The position numbers and the translations under genes are program-made. The notes below the pieces were generated by a model. The model was not told the DNA's origin and ran no database searches. It saw only the letters and a program-made list of their open reading frames with translations. A stretch of DNA of 53,822 bases from Sulfurimonas sp. (GTDB lineage: Bacteria; Campylobacterota; Campylobacteria; Campylobacterales; Sulfurimonadaceae): contig JAMOPL010000056.1 in assembly GCA_027064515.1 (NCBI GenBank), forward strand, positions 1-53,822. The letters run 5' to 3'. Shown piece by piece: positions 2,923 through 33,959 of the stretch; the first letter of the stretch is position 1, and every line of letters begins with the position of its first letter.

Positions 2923-5364
2923 ATGAAAAATATACAAAACTTAAAAACTTTAAAAACTTTAAAAAATGCTAGTGTTATAAATTCTATTATTGTTGCGGCT
3001 GTTATAATGGTGAGTGCTTTATTCTTTTTTATCCCTTATATCATGGAACAATATACTATTAAAACAATAATTGCTCATAGTAAAAATAGTGTTGAACAGA
3101 TTAAACTTATAAGAGCTTATTATGTAGATGCTGTTGTTGATGATATAAAAAAATATGCTCCAAACATAACATTTCATTATGACCATAAAGGGGTTAATGG
3201 AAGATTACCACTACCCACAACTACTATCTATGATTTAAGTAAGATTTTTAGTGAAAACACTGGGATAAAATATAACTTGTATAGTGATTATCCATTTGCA
3301 AACAGAAAAGATAGAGTACTTACTGATTTTCAGAAAGAAGCTATTAAATACACAAAAAAGAATAAAGATGGTGTATATGTAAAACGAGATACCATAAATG
3401 GAAAAGAAGTTTTAAGAGTTGCTACAACAGACTATATGACAGACCAATCTTGTGTTAATTGTCATAACAATCATATAGATAGAACTTGGGAAGCAAATAA
3501 ATGGAAGCTTGGTGATAAAAGAGGTGTCTTAGAGGTTATCACACCATTAGAAAATGAATTGGCTGATCATAAAATTATGAGAAACTATATCATTATTTTT
3601 ATCATCATAACCTTTGGAACAGTTTTATTGTATCTGTTTTATAAAATCAGAAAAAGAGAGAATGAACTTTTTGAAGTAAATGATAAACTAGAAGATACAG
3701 TAAACAACAAAAATAAAAAAATACAATCTATGGAAAAATTAACAAACCATTATATTATCTCATCAAAAACAGATACTAAGGGAATCATTACAGATGTTAG
3801 TCAAGCATTCATAGAGATTAGCGGTTATTCAAAAGAGGAGCTACTAAATAAACCTCATAATTTACTAAGACATCCAGATATGTTAAAAAGTACATTTAAA
3901 GATATGTGGAAGACTATACAATTAGGAAAAACTTGGAGGGGTGAAGTTAAAAATCTTAAAAAAGATGGTGATTTTTACTGGGTAGATGCTGTAATATCTG
4001 CTGATTTTGATGATGATAATAATATCATCGGCTATAATGCAGTTAGACAAAATATTACTGCTCAAAAAGAAGCTTACTATTTAGCTTATCACGATTTTTT
4101 AACATCTCTACCAAACAGAGCGAAGTTTGAAGAGATAGCCTCTCATGCGATTAAATCAGCCCAAAGAAATAATAATATAATTGCTATCCTTTTTATAGAC
4201 CTAGATAAATTCAAAAATATAAACGATACACTTGGTCATCATTATGGTGATGAGATGCTAAAAGTTGTTAGTAAAAGAATGCAAAATATTTTAAAAGATA
4301 TAGATACTATATCTAGAATTGGTGGGGATGAGTTTGTAATTTTACTAGAATCAATTACAAACACTAAACATATAGAAACTATTGTAAATAGAATTTTAGA
4401 CATTCTAAGAAAACCTATCGAAATCTTTAATAACACAGTTTACACTACTGCCAGTATAGGTATATCTATGTATCCTGATAATGGAAAAACTGTATCTAAA
4501 CTAATGAGATATGCAGATAGTGCAATGTACCATGCAAAAGATATGGGCAGAGATAGTTATCAATTTTATAGTGAAGAGCTAAACATCTTATTTACAAGAA
4601 AAATAGCTGTTGAAAAAGCTGTAAAAGATGCTATTACAAATAACTCTTTTGATTTTGTATTTCAACCAAAATATAATTTAATCTCTCATAAATGTAGCAG
4701 TTGTGAAGTTTTACTAAGATTAACAGATAAAGAGTTAGGATTTATTTCACCAGCAGAGTTTATACCAATAGCTGAAGAGAACAATATGATAATTGATATT
4801 GGAAATATTGTATTTAAAAAAGCTGTTCAAACATTTAAAAAATGGAAAGATATAGATTTAGGGATTGAACAAATATCTATAAATATATCAAGTACTCAAT
4901 TATCTGAAGAGAATATTGTTGCCAAGTATCTAAATATTATCAAAGAGAATAATATTCTCCCTACAAATATTGAATTAGAACTAACTGAACACTCTATGAT
5001 AGATGATTTAGATAAAAATATAAAAGTTCTAACAGAGCTAAGAGATTTAGGTTTTGAAATATCTATCGATGATTTTGGAACAGGTTATTCATCTATGAGT
5101 TATCTTAAAAAACTTCCTATTGATACGATTAAAATAGATAAATCTTTTATAGACGATATAGCTATAAATAAAGATGATTTAGCTATCGCTCATGCCATTA
5201 TTCAAATATCTAATGATTTAGGCTATAAGATAATCGCTGAAGGGATAGAGGATATAAAACAGGAAAATATTTTAATTGACTTAGGTTGTAAATACGGACA
5301 AGGATTTATATACTCTAAAGGATTATCAAATGAAGATTTCATCTCATTTATAAATAAAGAATAA
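2923..5364 (+). CDS. Membrane heme-sensor PAS-GGDEF-EAL c-di-GMP protein
   Basis: An 813-residue cyclic di-GMP enzyme. Order: cytoplasmic start, TM1 (~20-42), a periplasmic Tll0287-like/DUF3365 sensor with one heme-binding CVNCH motif near residue 180, TM2 (~221-243), a PAS domain (~270-375, aerotaxis-like GYSKEELLNKPHNLLRHPDM), GGDEF (~385-545) and EAL (~565-813). The cyclase signature RIGGDEF is intact. In the EAL domain the signature reads EVLLR instead of EALLR, while DDFGTGYSS, KIDKSFI and AEGIE are kept, so hydrolysis is plausible. The c-type heme suggests redox, O2 or NO sensing. It is a single gene convergent with def and separated from it by a strong bidirectional terminator. Confidence 0.9.
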   Translation: MKNIQNLKTLKTLKNASVINSIIVAAVIMVSALFFFIPYIMEQYTIKTIIAHSKNSVEQIKLIRAYYVDAVVDDIKKYAPNITFHYDHKGVNGRLPLPTTTIYDLSKIFSENTGIKYNLYSDYPFANRKDRVLTDFQKEAIKYTKKNKDGVYVKRDTINGKEVLRVATTDYMTDQSCVNCHNNHIDRTWEANKWKLGDKRGVLEVITPLENELADHKIMRNYIIIFIIITFGTVLLYLFYKIRKRENELFEVNDKLEDTVNNKNKKIQSMEKLTNHYIISSKTDTKGIITDVSQAFIEISGYSKEELLNKPHNLLRHPDMLKSTFKDMWKTIQLGKTWRGEVKNLKKDGDFYWVDAVISADFDDDNNIIGYNAVRQNITAQKEAYYLAYHDFLTSLPNRAKFEEIASHAIKSAQRNNNIIAILFIDLDKFKNINDTLGHHYGDEMLKVVSKRMQNILKDIDTISRIGGDEFVILLESITNTKHIETIVNRILDILRKPIEIFNNTVYTTASIGISMYPDNGKTVSKLMRYADSAMYHAKDMGRDSYQFYSEELNILFTRKIAVEKAVKDAITNNSFDFVFQPKYNLISHKCSSCEVLLRLTDKELGFISPAEFIPIAEENNMIIDIGNIVFKKAVQTFKKWKDIDLGIEQISINISSTQLSEENIVAKYLNIIKENNILPTNIELELTEHSMIDDLDKNIKVLTELRDLGFEISIDDFGTGYSSMSYLKKLPIDTIKIDKSFIDDIAINKDDLAIAHAIIQISNDLGYKIIAEGIEDIKQENILIDLGCKYGQGFIYSKGLSNEDFISFINKE

Positions 5365-30322: not shown

Positions 30323-31651
30323 TTAAGAAACTAACTCACGATTAAATTTTTTAGTTTTTAGTTTTGCTCCAAGATATTTACAGATTAACTCTGCATCTTC
30401 ATAGGCATTACCTAAACAACTTGTCGCTCCTGGTGATGGTGTCATGTTAAAAACAATTCCATCTCCAGTATCAATTTTAGCTTCACCTAAAAGTAACTCT
30501 TTGTTCTTTTTATCAATAACTTGTGGTCTAAGTCCACCAACACCCTCAGCAAACACAATGTCATCTTTTGTAAGTGATGGAACTATTTTTTGAACCTCTT
30601 TTGCAAACAGTTTTCTTCTTACACCTGGAACTTCATATAAAAAGTTTTTAACAGCGTAATCTCTAATATCTTTATCACCCATAAGTTTGTAAAATACTTC
30701 TATAACAGCAGGAGTAGGGCTAAGAGATTCTAAAAAGTCCATAAAGTGAGCATGATGGTATCTCTCTAGTTTTGGTAGAGCAATAGCAGTTGGACCAAAT
30801 CTAATAGTGTTATCATGCACTAAATCTGGATCACCATGAATAGCAGCAAATGGAAGTTTTGGGTTTTGAATAGTGTAAACTTTAGTTTTTAGTTTATTTA
30901 TCTTAGAGTAATAAAAACTCCCACCAATAGGCAAACAAGAGTAATCAAGTCCATGACCCATCTGATGAGCAAGTAAAAGTGAATGAGCTCCAGCATTTAC
31001 AACTACATAATCAGCAAAATATTTTTCACTCCCAACAGTAACTATATATTTATCACCTTTTTTCTTTATAGAATCTACCTCTTTGTTAAAGTGTACATCT
31101 ATCTCATCATTCTCTTTTTTTGCATTTCTTGCAAAACTTTTTGCAATCTCTCCAAAATCAACAGCACTATATCTCTCATTAGTCCCCATAGCTACGACAT
31201 CAACATCTTTATCCCGACCCTCAAGAAGAGCAGGTTCAATAGTCTCTAAATCTTTTCTACTCCATAGTTTCATATATGGGAAATCTTTTTTAAACTCTTT
31301 GTATCTAGCTTTGATAAACTTAACCTCTTCATCGCCAACACCTATCGCCATTTTAGGAATTTTAAACATATATTTATCATCATATCCATAAAGTTTTCCA
31401 TAGTTTTCAACCATAGTTGCTGTACGGTTTGTTTTTATAGCTTTTTCAAGTGTGTAGTTTGTCTCAATATCCCCACAATGAAGAGTTTGTGAGTTACCCT
31501 TAGCATTTGAATTTAGTGTAGCTAATTCATTATATTTTTCAAATAGTGCAATATTTTTTATATCTGTATATTTTGCTAGAGTATAAAGTAAAGCAGTCCC
31601 AGAAATACCCCCACCAATCACGATAACATCGTAGTAATGTTTTTTTGCCAT
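30323..31651 (-). CDS. mqo: Malate:quinone oxidoreductase
   Basis: A 442-residue FAD enzyme that oxidises malate to oxaloacetate and passes electrons to the quinone pool at the inner membrane. The N-terminal FAD loop VIGGGISGTALLYTLAKY is clear, with SNAKGNSQTLHCGDIETNY (~46-64), GATSCLGNA near the C-terminus and GPTAIALPKLER in the middle, all as in Mqo. It lacks any membrane-spanning helix, fitting peripheral attachment. Slightly shorter than the E. coli form and like the epsilonproteobacterial group. Converges with the double-REC cyclase. Confidence 0.88.
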   Translation of the reverse strand: MAKKHYYDVIVIGGGISGTALLYTLAKYTDIKNIALFEKYNELATLNSNAKGNSQTLHCGDIETNYTLEKAIKTNRTATMVENYGKLYGYDDKYMFKIPKMAIGVGDEEVKFIKARYKEFKKDFPYMKLWSRKDLETIEPALLEGRDKDVDVVAMGTNERYSAVDFGEIAKSFARNAKKENDEIDVHFNKEVDSIKKKGDKYIVTVGSEKYFADYVVVNAGAHSLLLAHQMGHGLDYSCLPIGGSFYYSKINKLKTKVYTIQNPKLPFAAIHGDPDLVHDNTIRFGPTAIALPKLERYHHAHFMDFLESLSPTPAVIEVFYKLMGDKDIRDYAVKNFLYEVPGVRRKLFAKEVQKIVPSLTKDDIVFAEGVGGLRPQVIDKKNKELLLGEAKIDTGDGIVFNMTPSPGATSCLGNAYEDAELICKYLGAKLKTKKFNRELVS

Positions 31652-31969
31652 TGTAAAAACCTTTAATTTAGTATTAAAATTATTATAACACTAAATTAAA
31701 TAAAACAGATAAAATTCAAGAAACACTATAAAAAATTCTTAGTTTATGTATCAATTATTTATTCTAATTCTCTTCTTATCGGCATATTATCTAACTTATA
31801 TCATTCTACTTTAAAATATTATAGTTCGATACAAACTAGTTATCAATATAAAGATATGTGTATTAGTGCGATATCTATATTTAGTATGCACCAAACTAGA
31901 ATAACAAACTAAAGAGTTATAAAGAATGGTTTTGATAAACTCACATCAATACTATTTAGGAGTTATTTA
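31652..31969. other. 318-bp intergenic region
   Basis: Lies between the divergent mqo and the HsdM-HsdS-like gene. AT-rich, with an imperfect hairpin (AGATAT/ATATCT around 31853-31885). A 22-codon hydrophobic reading starts with ATG at 31746 but has no Shine-Dalgarno and none of the RNA motifs of the structured loci. The strong AGGAG of the downstream TTG gene is at about 31961. I see nothing else. Confidence 0.4.
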
Positions 31970-33775
31970 TTGAAAGAGAATAAATTTATTGAACAGATTG
32001 AAAGAATTAATCTTAATTGTGGAAATCAAGAAAAAGCTTTCTATTTATTGTATGTACTAATGGCTTGGAAACACTCATCTAACGAGATTAAAGGGAAGTT
32101 TAGTTTTGAGAATTTTTATAACTCTAAAATAGAGGTAGATAGGCTTTTAAGTATATTTGAAGAGATAAAATCAGAACTATTATTTATAAGAATTTTTTTG
32201 TCTGCTGACGCTGTCCTTTTAAGAGAGCAATCATCCCCTTTAGAAAATAATGATTTAATTAAACTTTGTAATCTGATAAATACCACTAAATCACTACCAA
32301 ATGTTTCACTAGGATTTAAAATAATTCATCAGTTTTTTAATAAAAATGATAAAAATAATGAGTTATATATCAGTTCTAGTATCAATAAACTAACAAGTGA
32401 ATTAATAGATGATAATTCTAAAACTATATATATCCCTTTTAATAACTCTTTAGAATTTTTATACTCTTTGGATAAGAAGAGAGAGATATACACAGAATCT
32501 AAAACAAATCATCTCCTTTTCGAATTATTAAATATTTTGGATGGTATTAAGATTACACATAAGGATTCTGAACCATTAATAGAACCATCATATATAAATA
32601 AAAAAGCACCCCATCTACTTGAGCAATTTGATAGTTGTGTACTTTTTTTACCATTTGGCAGAAAAAATATAAATAACTCTATAAATGTAGAGAGTGATAA
32701 ATTTGATAGATTTCATTATCATAATGGTGTGATTCTTGATGTTAACTGTGTGGAGCATACTTTGGCTCAAACAGAGAAACAGGCAATCTTATATATGCCA
32801 GTAGGTTTTACATATAGAGGGGGTTCAGAGGCTAAATTGAGAAAGGATTTGATAGAAAATAATTATCTTGAATCAGTTATACAGTTAGCACCAAATTTAG
32901 ATTCAAATACATCCACTGAAACAACTATAATTGTGATAAACAAGAAAAAAAATGATGATAAGGTACATTTTATCAATTTAAAAGATTCTAGTTTTTTAAA
33001 AAAAGATGGAAGAAAAGTTATACTTGATAACTTTGATAAAATTATAGATATTTATAAAAATAAAATAGAGATTGACAACATATCGAGAGTTGTGAATAAT
33101 GAAGAGATTAAGAGTAATAAATTTTCATTTTCAGTAGAAAGATATATGAAATCTAAAGAATCTTTACTTATAAAAGAGTATTTAGAATCATATAAAACAA
33201 TAGAGTTACAAACAATCGCTACTGTTAGGAAATCTCAGCTTTTTAGTGATGAAAATGAGGGTAAAACTGTTTATGAAATATCCCCTTCCGATTTTAGTTC
33301 TGCTGGTTTTACTATGAAAGGGACAAAATCAAAAAAAATCAAAAAACAGTTAAGAAAGTTATATATATATAAATTAGAGAAATATGATGTGATTTTAAGC
33401 ACAAAAGGGACAATAGGTAAAATTGCTATTTATGATAAAGTGGCAACTCAAACAGATGATTTTATAGTATCTCAAGCAAATGTCATTATTAGAATTAATG
33501 AAGATGATAGTTTAAAACGGAAAAACAGAGCGATAGAGCTTTATATGTTTTTAAAATCAAATATAGGTCAAAATATTTTAAAAGAGTTGGTATCAGGTAC
33601 TGTAATGCCTCAAATATCTACCGATGATGTGAAAAAAATGAAGATTCCCATTATATATGAAGAGGAAAAAGAAAAAATTTCTAAAAATTTCTATAAAGAG
33701 ATAAAAATTTTTGAAAAAATTAATAAATTACAATTAGAGATAGAGAATATTCATAGTGAATTTTTAAAAGTATAA
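31970..33775 (+). CDS. HsdM-HsdS-like fusion with degenerate methylase motifs
   Basis: A 601-residue protein read from TTG (AGGAG seven bases before). Residues ~1-380 follow an HsdM N6-adenine methylase in order, but key motifs are gone: the SAM loop (D-P-x-C-G-S-G) is IPFNNSLEF, and the catalytic N-P-P-F is F-L-P-F (in FDSCVLFLPFG, ~219). The downstream HsdM part is well kept (PVGFTYRGGSEAKLRKDLIE, SVIQLAPNL, TTIIVINKK). Residues ~400-601 are a single HsdS target recognition domain (KYDVILSTKGTIGKIAIYD, VSGTVMPQISTDDVKKMKIPI) with a C-terminal coiled coil. No hsdR is nearby. Probably DNA-binding but not methylating. Confidence 0.75.
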   Translation: MKENKFIEQIERINLNCGNQEKAFYLLYVLMAWKHSSNEIKGKFSFENFYNSKIEVDRLLSIFEEIKSELLFIRIFLSADAVLLREQSSPLENNDLIKLCNLINTTKSLPNVSLGFKIIHQFFNKNDKNNELYISSSINKLTSELIDDNSKTIYIPFNNSLEFLYSLDKKREIYTESKTNHLLFELLNILDGIKITHKDSEPLIEPSYINKKAPHLLEQFDSCVLFLPFGRKNINNSINVESDKFDRFHYHNGVILDVNCVEHTLAQTEKQAILYMPVGFTYRGGSEAKLRKDLIENNYLESVIQLAPNLDSNTSTETTIIVINKKKNDDKVHFINLKDSSFLKKDGRKVILDNFDKIIDIYKNKIEIDNISRVVNNEEIKSNKFSFSVERYMKSKESLLIKEYLESYKTIELQTIATVRKSQLFSDENEGKTVYEISPSDFSSAGFTMKGTKSKKIKKQLRKLYIYKLEKYDVILSTKGTIGKIAIYDKVATQTDDFIVSQANVIIRINEDDSLKRKNRAIELYMFLKSNIGQNILKELVSGTVMPQISTDDVKKMKIPIIYEEEKEKISKNFYKEIKIFEKINKLQLEIENIHSEFLKV

Positions 33776-33776
33776 G

Positions 33777-33959
33777 TTTTAAAATAATTCTATGAATAAA
33801 TATAAGACTTGAATTTTTATCAAATTCTAATATTTTAAAATTCTCTAAAAAAGGTTCTATTATCTTTAGATTTTGCTCAATCCTAGCAGAATTATATACA
33901 CCATATATCAACTCTATGTAGTTTATTCTTGATATATATAGATTATCAGCAAGTATCAT
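33777..33959 (-). pseudogene. VapC-like PIN toxin remnant
   Basis: Reads MILADN then directly LYISRINYIELIYGVYNSAR, LKIIEPFLENFKILEFDKNS, then non-homologous residues. The middle and end of the first half of VapC match (I-S-x-I-x-x-x-E-L-x-x-G-V, and the FEILPFD-type strand), but the segment between the first Asp and the ISRI strand is deleted and the C-terminal acidic residues are missing. Just upstream a short frame ending RELYIARFKSKK overlaps the ATG in an ATGA junction, as an antitoxin tail would. Non-functional toxin-antitoxin relic. Confidence 0.65.

Follow-up and report, generated by a model that had tools for sequence, protein, structure and literature searches.

What does a type I modification gene do when it lacks its catalytic motifs and yet keeps its reading frame whole? 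The question arises in a 53,822-nucleotide stretch of DNA from Sulfurimonas sp. (assembly GCA_027064515.1, contig JAMOPL010000056.1; the whole stretch is hereafter "the window"), where one gene, which we call X, joins a methylase fold to a single specificity domain. A first-pass annotation, made from the letters alone, had read X as an orphan HsdM–HsdS fusion with both methylase motifs destroyed, and had suggested that it binds specific DNA sequences without methylating them, perhaps as part of regulation or of a defence system.

A methylase fold without its catalytic motifs

The gene and its parts are as follows.

31970-33775, plus strand: gene X, fusion of a catalytically dead HsdM and a half-size HsdS (601 aa, TTG start; open reading frame, Pfam, alignment and model)
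31958-31962, plus strand: Shine–Dalgarno sequence AGGAG (sequence)
31970-33169, plus strand: HsdM-like part of X, residues 1-400 (Pfam and structure match)
32426-32461, plus strand: degenerate motif I (SAM loop), residues 153-164, IYIPFNNSLEFL (alignment)
32645-32656, plus strand: degenerate motif IV, residues 226-229, FLPF (alignment)
33179-33649, plus strand: single target recognition domain (TRD), about residues 404-560 (Pfam, model and structure match)
33659-33769, plus strand: long C-terminal helix, residues 564-600, at the place of the HsdS conserved region (model); likely a dimer helix

The frame runs uninterrupted for 601 codons, from the TTG at 31970 to a stop that ends at 33775, and AGGAG stands before it; the first-pass annotation had stated an open frame of this length and a good Shine–Dalgarno sequence. 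Its claim that HsdM segments and one TRD are kept is likewise borne out: Pfam assigns residues 121-397 to N6_Mtase (E 3.4e-28) and residues 408-592 to a single Methylase_S domain (E 1.5e-6), and the AlphaFold model (mean pLDDT 83.8) agrees. By structure comparison of this model, residues 1-394 match type I M subunits (PacII M, Z 30.6) and residues 399-601 match the single-TRD protein Esub1 (Z 19.3); the fold of X is therefore that of an HsdM plus half an HsdS, with one Methylase_S stretch and one C-terminal helix rather than the two TRDs of an HsdS. What X lacks are the two motifs of an active HsdM. In the alignment with relatives, the place of SAM motif I (of the D-P-x-C/F-G-x-G-G type) is taken by IYIPFNNSLEF and that of the catalytic N-P-P-[YFW] by FLPF, the replacement described earlier. 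Without a SAM loop and a catalytic motif, X should not methylate.

An old loss shared by a family

The same dead fusion occurs at 17 different Campylobacterota loci, which came from searches of 99, 135, 397, 398 and 397 genomes (overlapping draws) and one genome-contig scan. That scan, made with a nine-member alignment, yielded 13 loci. L066, which covers residues 473-575 only, was excluded, and L054, L057 and L062 come from genomes that were in the set before; a first scan with a single X protein as query gave no matches. More distant members are found in Geobacteraceae and Prochlorococcus (genome-contig scan) and on plasmids of Oscillatoria, Cyanobacterium, Geminocystis, Annamia, Aromatoleum and Aliivibrio. 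In Roseovarius, X is broken into two frames, and it does not figure in the protein alignments. No relative appeared in a viral contig scan, and tblastn of a phage collection returned 22 records, none of them over 80% of the query.

Motifs I and IV are absent from all 24 aligned X proteins (16 from Campylobacterota and eight others): none has the glycine loop (G-x-G), none has N/D/S-P-P-[YFW], and the place of motif IV mostly reads FPP or IPP in the relatives. The seventeenth Campylobacterota protein (G636) is also dead at these motifs, by reading. Structure prediction and alignment to HsdM, the check that the first-pass annotation had proposed, thus returned the fold and left the motifs missing. 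As the loss is common to all aligned members, the dead state is old, and the word "destroyed" does not fit an absence that is not local. Decay of a normal hsdM–hsdS pair at this locus was considered as the cause and rejected, since all 24 share the loss.

A separate observation concerns two cyanobacterial copies (L069, Cyanobacterium Dongsha4, at about 4430; L070, Geminocystis, at about 8715), in which the frame of X apparently starts further upstream and changes register at a stretch of nine T. Both copies have this stretch, which points to slippage or phase variation.

Operon position and a conserved specificity domain

The second check that had been proposed, a search for the same fusion and its neighbours in other genomes, places X mostly beside type I restriction–modification (RM) genes. 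X lies directly before hsdM (eight loci) or hsdR (three) in 11 of 16 Campylobacterota loci, and in nine of these 11 it overlaps the next hsd gene or is separated from it by at most 11 bases (in the genome loci, HsdM, HsdS and HsdR were assigned by visual inspection of size, order and motifs; annotation was present in the plasmid records only). In the other five (G000, G491, L059, L060 and L061), the window among them, no RM gene follows; in G636, the seventeenth locus, X comes after hsdR. The label "orphan" therefore holds for the window copy and not for the family. In a tree, the five lone copies fall without resolution among the RM-linked ones.

Among the named records, plasmid pSULKU03 of Sulfuricurvum kujiense has the order small gene, "subunit M/S", methyltransferase, S and, further on, R, and plasmid 2 of Aromatoleum EbN1 has DUF4258, X, helicase, M, S. 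Within Campylobacterota and outside them, the gene before X is often a small one resembling DUF4258. A WYL regulator precedes it in two loci, where X may therefore not be the main regulator. Beyond the hsdR of G011, at L031:4604-5368 (plus strand), lies a 254-residue protein that reads like a lone half-specificity subunit, for which no Pfam family matched at the threshold used.

The partners of X vary more than X itself. Across the eight loci with both HsdS and HsdM, the HsdM beside X belongs to three distinct classes of about 25-28% mutual identity, and X accompanies each of them. Median identity over the 28 pairs of these loci is 58% for the X TRD, 47% for the X M part, 27% for HsdM and 26% for HsdS; for the pair G474 and L063 the values are 95% (X TRD) and 47% (HsdS). 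The specificity domain of X is thus not diversifying, from which we infer that it is probably fixed on one DNA target.

Paired palindromes at the X promoter

Two candidate targets lie in the promoter of X in the window (pattern scan).

31822-31838: putative operator O1, TAGTTCGATACAAACTA
31882-31898: putative operator O2, TAGTATGCACCAAACTA, 60 bp from O1

The pattern, TAGT-N9-ACTA, was first spotted by eye in upstream regions of the same loci that were later used for counting. In a word-free test, which enumerated all palindromic 4+4 words with gaps of 0-20 in the 250 bp upstream of 16 modules, TAGT-N9-ACTA nevertheless ranked first, being exact in 12 of 16 Campylobacterota loci; in 200 dinucleotide shuffles the best count of any word was 8, and TAGT-N9-ACTA averaged 0.175. 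With at most one mismatch the site stands before X in all 16 loci, and 12 have paired sites 48-62 bp apart. These loci are related, so they amount to fewer than 16 independent cases. The exact word occurs 19 times in 4,000 bp of promoter vs five times in the remaining 256,724 bp of these loci, and three times in 99,030 bp of 28 ordinary-hit loci; it was found upstream of 0 of 27 ordinary-hit genes, some of whose upstream regions may be operon-internal.

The layout is also shared. In 14 of 16 loci TTGAC, the −35 box, begins 17-18 bp downstream of the first base of O1, so that O1 abuts the box. Columns beyond the site and the promoter boxes show hardly any conservation, and in some loci the inner letters of the site covary (TAGTTTG...CAAACTA, TAGTTAT...GTAACTA, TAGTAAA...ATTACTA), which is what the reading of a palindrome by a dimer would predict. 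In Sulfuricurvum kujiense, the putative sites before X (WP_013450026.1) lie at about 5168-5184 and 5226-5242 of NC_014756.1. Both window sites are exact and are the sole occurrences of TAGTNNGNNNCAAACTA in the window genome. The looser TAGT-N9-ACTA occurs there 67 times, below the 115 of a reversed control pattern; the four-plus-four letters alone are therefore not very specific. The 4-N9-4 geometry exceeds the spacers of 5 to 8 that are usual in type I targets (PMC6158711). From reading the loci, X is the only gene observed in common across those that bear the sites. At one of them (L055, about 1730-1840) an apparent, internally deleted DUF4258 remnant lies between O2 and X, and the operators are kept.

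Beyond these 16 loci the picture is mixed. G636, examined after the motif had been defined, has an exact site 64 bp upstream of X and none before hsdM; its locus is rich in exact sites (five in 18,501 bp), and the support is therefore modest. The Annamia X promoter has two copies of ACTAT-N3-ATAGT at a distance of 62 bp, the layout that Campylobacterota show; that of Aromatoleum has GTACG-N-CGTAC twice, around the −35 box; and AGTA-N5-TACT occurs once each in Oscillatoria, Geminocystis and Cyanobacterium, as the only such word in each fetched locus. No clear palindrome pair was found in the X promoters of Geobacteraceae, Prochlorococcus or Aliivibrio, and a de novo per-locus test for repeated palindromes gave p ≤0.053 in only 10 of 25 loci.

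A dead modification enzyme as a probable regulator

Dead motifs, a conserved TRD, the place in the operon and paired conserved sites are the computed basis on which we consider it likely that X derives from a type I modification enzyme, survives as a dead M-half-S dimer and now acts as an autoregulator of type I restriction operons. Two copies, each folding as HsdM, one TRD and one conserved helix, would probably pair through the C-terminal helix, as in engineered M-half-S fusions, so that two TRDs could read a palindrome. The dimer would bind TAGT-N9-ACTA at O1, directly upstream of the −35 box, and at O2, past the −10 box, and would thereby set the level of its own operon, hsdM, hsdS and hsdR included in most relatives. 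Because O2 lies downstream of the −10 box, repression seems likelier than activation; by analogy with C proteins, activation from O1 at low dose is possible.

The DNA-binding role without methylation that had been suggested for X, in regulation or defence, is thus supported by the family-wide loss of motifs, by a TRD more conserved than the M part, by the position before type I genes in 11 of 16 loci and by the paired palindrome in the promoter, which X would bind. Together these features suggest that X is now a switch controlling bacterial anti-virus genes.

The lone copy in the window

The window contig has no other N6_Mtase, HSDR_N or Methylase_S match. The window genome (80% complete) carries M-S-R sets on contigs C139 and C89, and its contig C150 encodes a long enzyme in one piece; the earlier statement that there is no hsdR or second hsdM is thus right for the contig and wrong for the genome. 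The promoter of this copy differs from that of its relatives (locus comparison).

31840-31845, plus strand: TTATCA where 14 of 16 loci have TTGAC (−35); a weak or decayed promoter

No good forward promoter was found at X in the window. A minus-strand promoter-like sequence, TTGATA-N17-TATAAT (31818-31846, 11/12 match, O1 in its spacer), is better than any forward one and faces an oxidoreductase gene at 30323-31651. Beside X, at 33776-33959 on the minus strand, lies a remnant of a PIN-domain (VapC-like) gene (61 residues, E 0.0017, below the curated cut-off). A search for an empty site through the neighbouring oxidoreductase gene in the two nearest relatives met a contig end beside the gene in one and, before the contig end, no desaturase neighbour in the other.

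With the restriction operon absent and X alone with both operators, the window copy may be either a solitary autoregulator or a recent relic. The second possibility, in which this copy is the decaying remainder of a lost restriction operon and has ceased to function, independently of what its relatives do, applies to the window copy alone and is compatible with the regulatory role proposed for the family. The gene stands alone with a degraded promoter hexamer, the PIN-domain remnant adjoins it, and it has five private changes at otherwise invariant positions vs 0-3 in RM-linked copies. Against this, 601 codons remain without a stop, only one private change falls in the TRD, and both operators are exact at their 60 bp spacing. 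We regard decay without function as possible, though rather unlikely.

Alternative readings of the family

The tight coupling to hsdM or hsdR could also mean that X acts as a structural partner within the type I enzyme. Such a dead subunit would associate with HsdM, HsdS or HsdR and modulate restriction (for instance, as an antirestriction or assembly factor), in which case the promoter sites would belong to another regulator. Dead partner subunits do occur in other methyltransferases. However, the same X accompanies HsdM classes only about 25-28% identical, X and its sites persist without a nearby RM gene in 5 of 16 loci, and no other gene was observed in common among the site-bearing loci; we therefore think a partner role improbable.

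Still less probable is that the DUF4258 gene and X form a toxin–antitoxin pair, in which X would be the DNA-binding antitoxin that represses the pair and the RM genes would be passengers. DUF4258 is listed among putative type II toxins (PMC4861877, PMC4963859), and in 10 of 24 loci, from more than one phylum, a DUF4258-like gene stands before X (unscored genes were assigned by resemblance). However, the Pfam cut-off was passed in only three of seven tested, and X and its operators occur without DUF4258 in the window and elsewhere. That X still methylates through an unusual active site is, despite its complete fold, hardly credible, as neither the G-x-G loop nor N/D/S-P-P-[YFW] is present in any of 24 members. 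An autoregulator that has ceased to methylate remains our preferred reading.

Comparison with known systems

Regulators of RM operons are a known kind, and X resembles several of them in part. A structural parallel is the engineered M-half-S of the Staphylococcus aureus CC398 type I system, in which HsdM fused to half an HsdS dimerised and methylated the palindrome ACC-N5-GGT (Bower et al., PMC6158711). X shares the architecture of HsdM and one TRD with this fusion, which dimerises and reads a palindrome; unlike it, X is natural, dead and paired with promoter sites.

With C (controller) proteins, X would share the role of a dedicated regulator in an RM operon, and paired palindromic, putative operator sites at its own RM promoter are found in the X family as well. 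C proteins, however, are helix-turn-helix proteins of mostly type II systems, and a Pfam scan found no helix-turn-helix domain in X; one C protein is reported upstream of a type I locus, in Mycoplasma gallisepticum (PMC12707154; for the general behaviour of C proteins see also PMC3874152). RptR (PMC12255303) is likewise the first gene of a type I RM operon and a repressor with palindromic promoter sites. It is a 79-residue helical protein of Gammaproteobacteria with TAGCTA repeats overlapping the −10 box, whereas X has 601 residues and a methylase fold. Methyltransferases that repress RM promoters through a fused domain are also known (PMC12707154). Those of EcoRII, SsoII and Ecl18kI are active type II enzymes with a fused repressor domain, whereas X would use the specificity domain itself. 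Finally, all 22 X members scanned match NF047740, the named specificity-subunit family MAD5 of MADS; P0001, however, matches with its residues 220-443 over only part of the profile, at 51.5 bits against a cut-off of 400, and a literature search found no paper describing MAD5 of MADS.

Implications for the control of type I restriction

The control of type I restriction operons is poorly known—a 2025 review speaks of surprisingly little information (PMC12707154, section 20)—and our literature search, with most subscription journals outside its scope, found no description of a dead M-S fusion as a regulator. In a wider model, restriction operons of several phyla might be run by a class of transcription factors derived from their own enzymes, M-half-S dimers that no longer methylate and whose TRD stays fixed on the operator of the operon. 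As such a factor would read DNA in the way that a restriction enzyme does, titration by site-rich incoming DNA, or a response to operator methylation, could raise restriction when foreign DNA enters; this model is doubtful at present. Proteins annotated as "type I restriction-modification system subunit M/S" may not methylate, which is a warning for the use of such labels, and named putative operators are available in sequenced bacteria such as Sulfuricurvum kujiense. If X binds its sites, it would be another way to control type I restriction operons, in which an RM enzyme, and not a helix-turn-helix protein, has supplied the regulator, and dead Cas9 would have a counterpart in nature.
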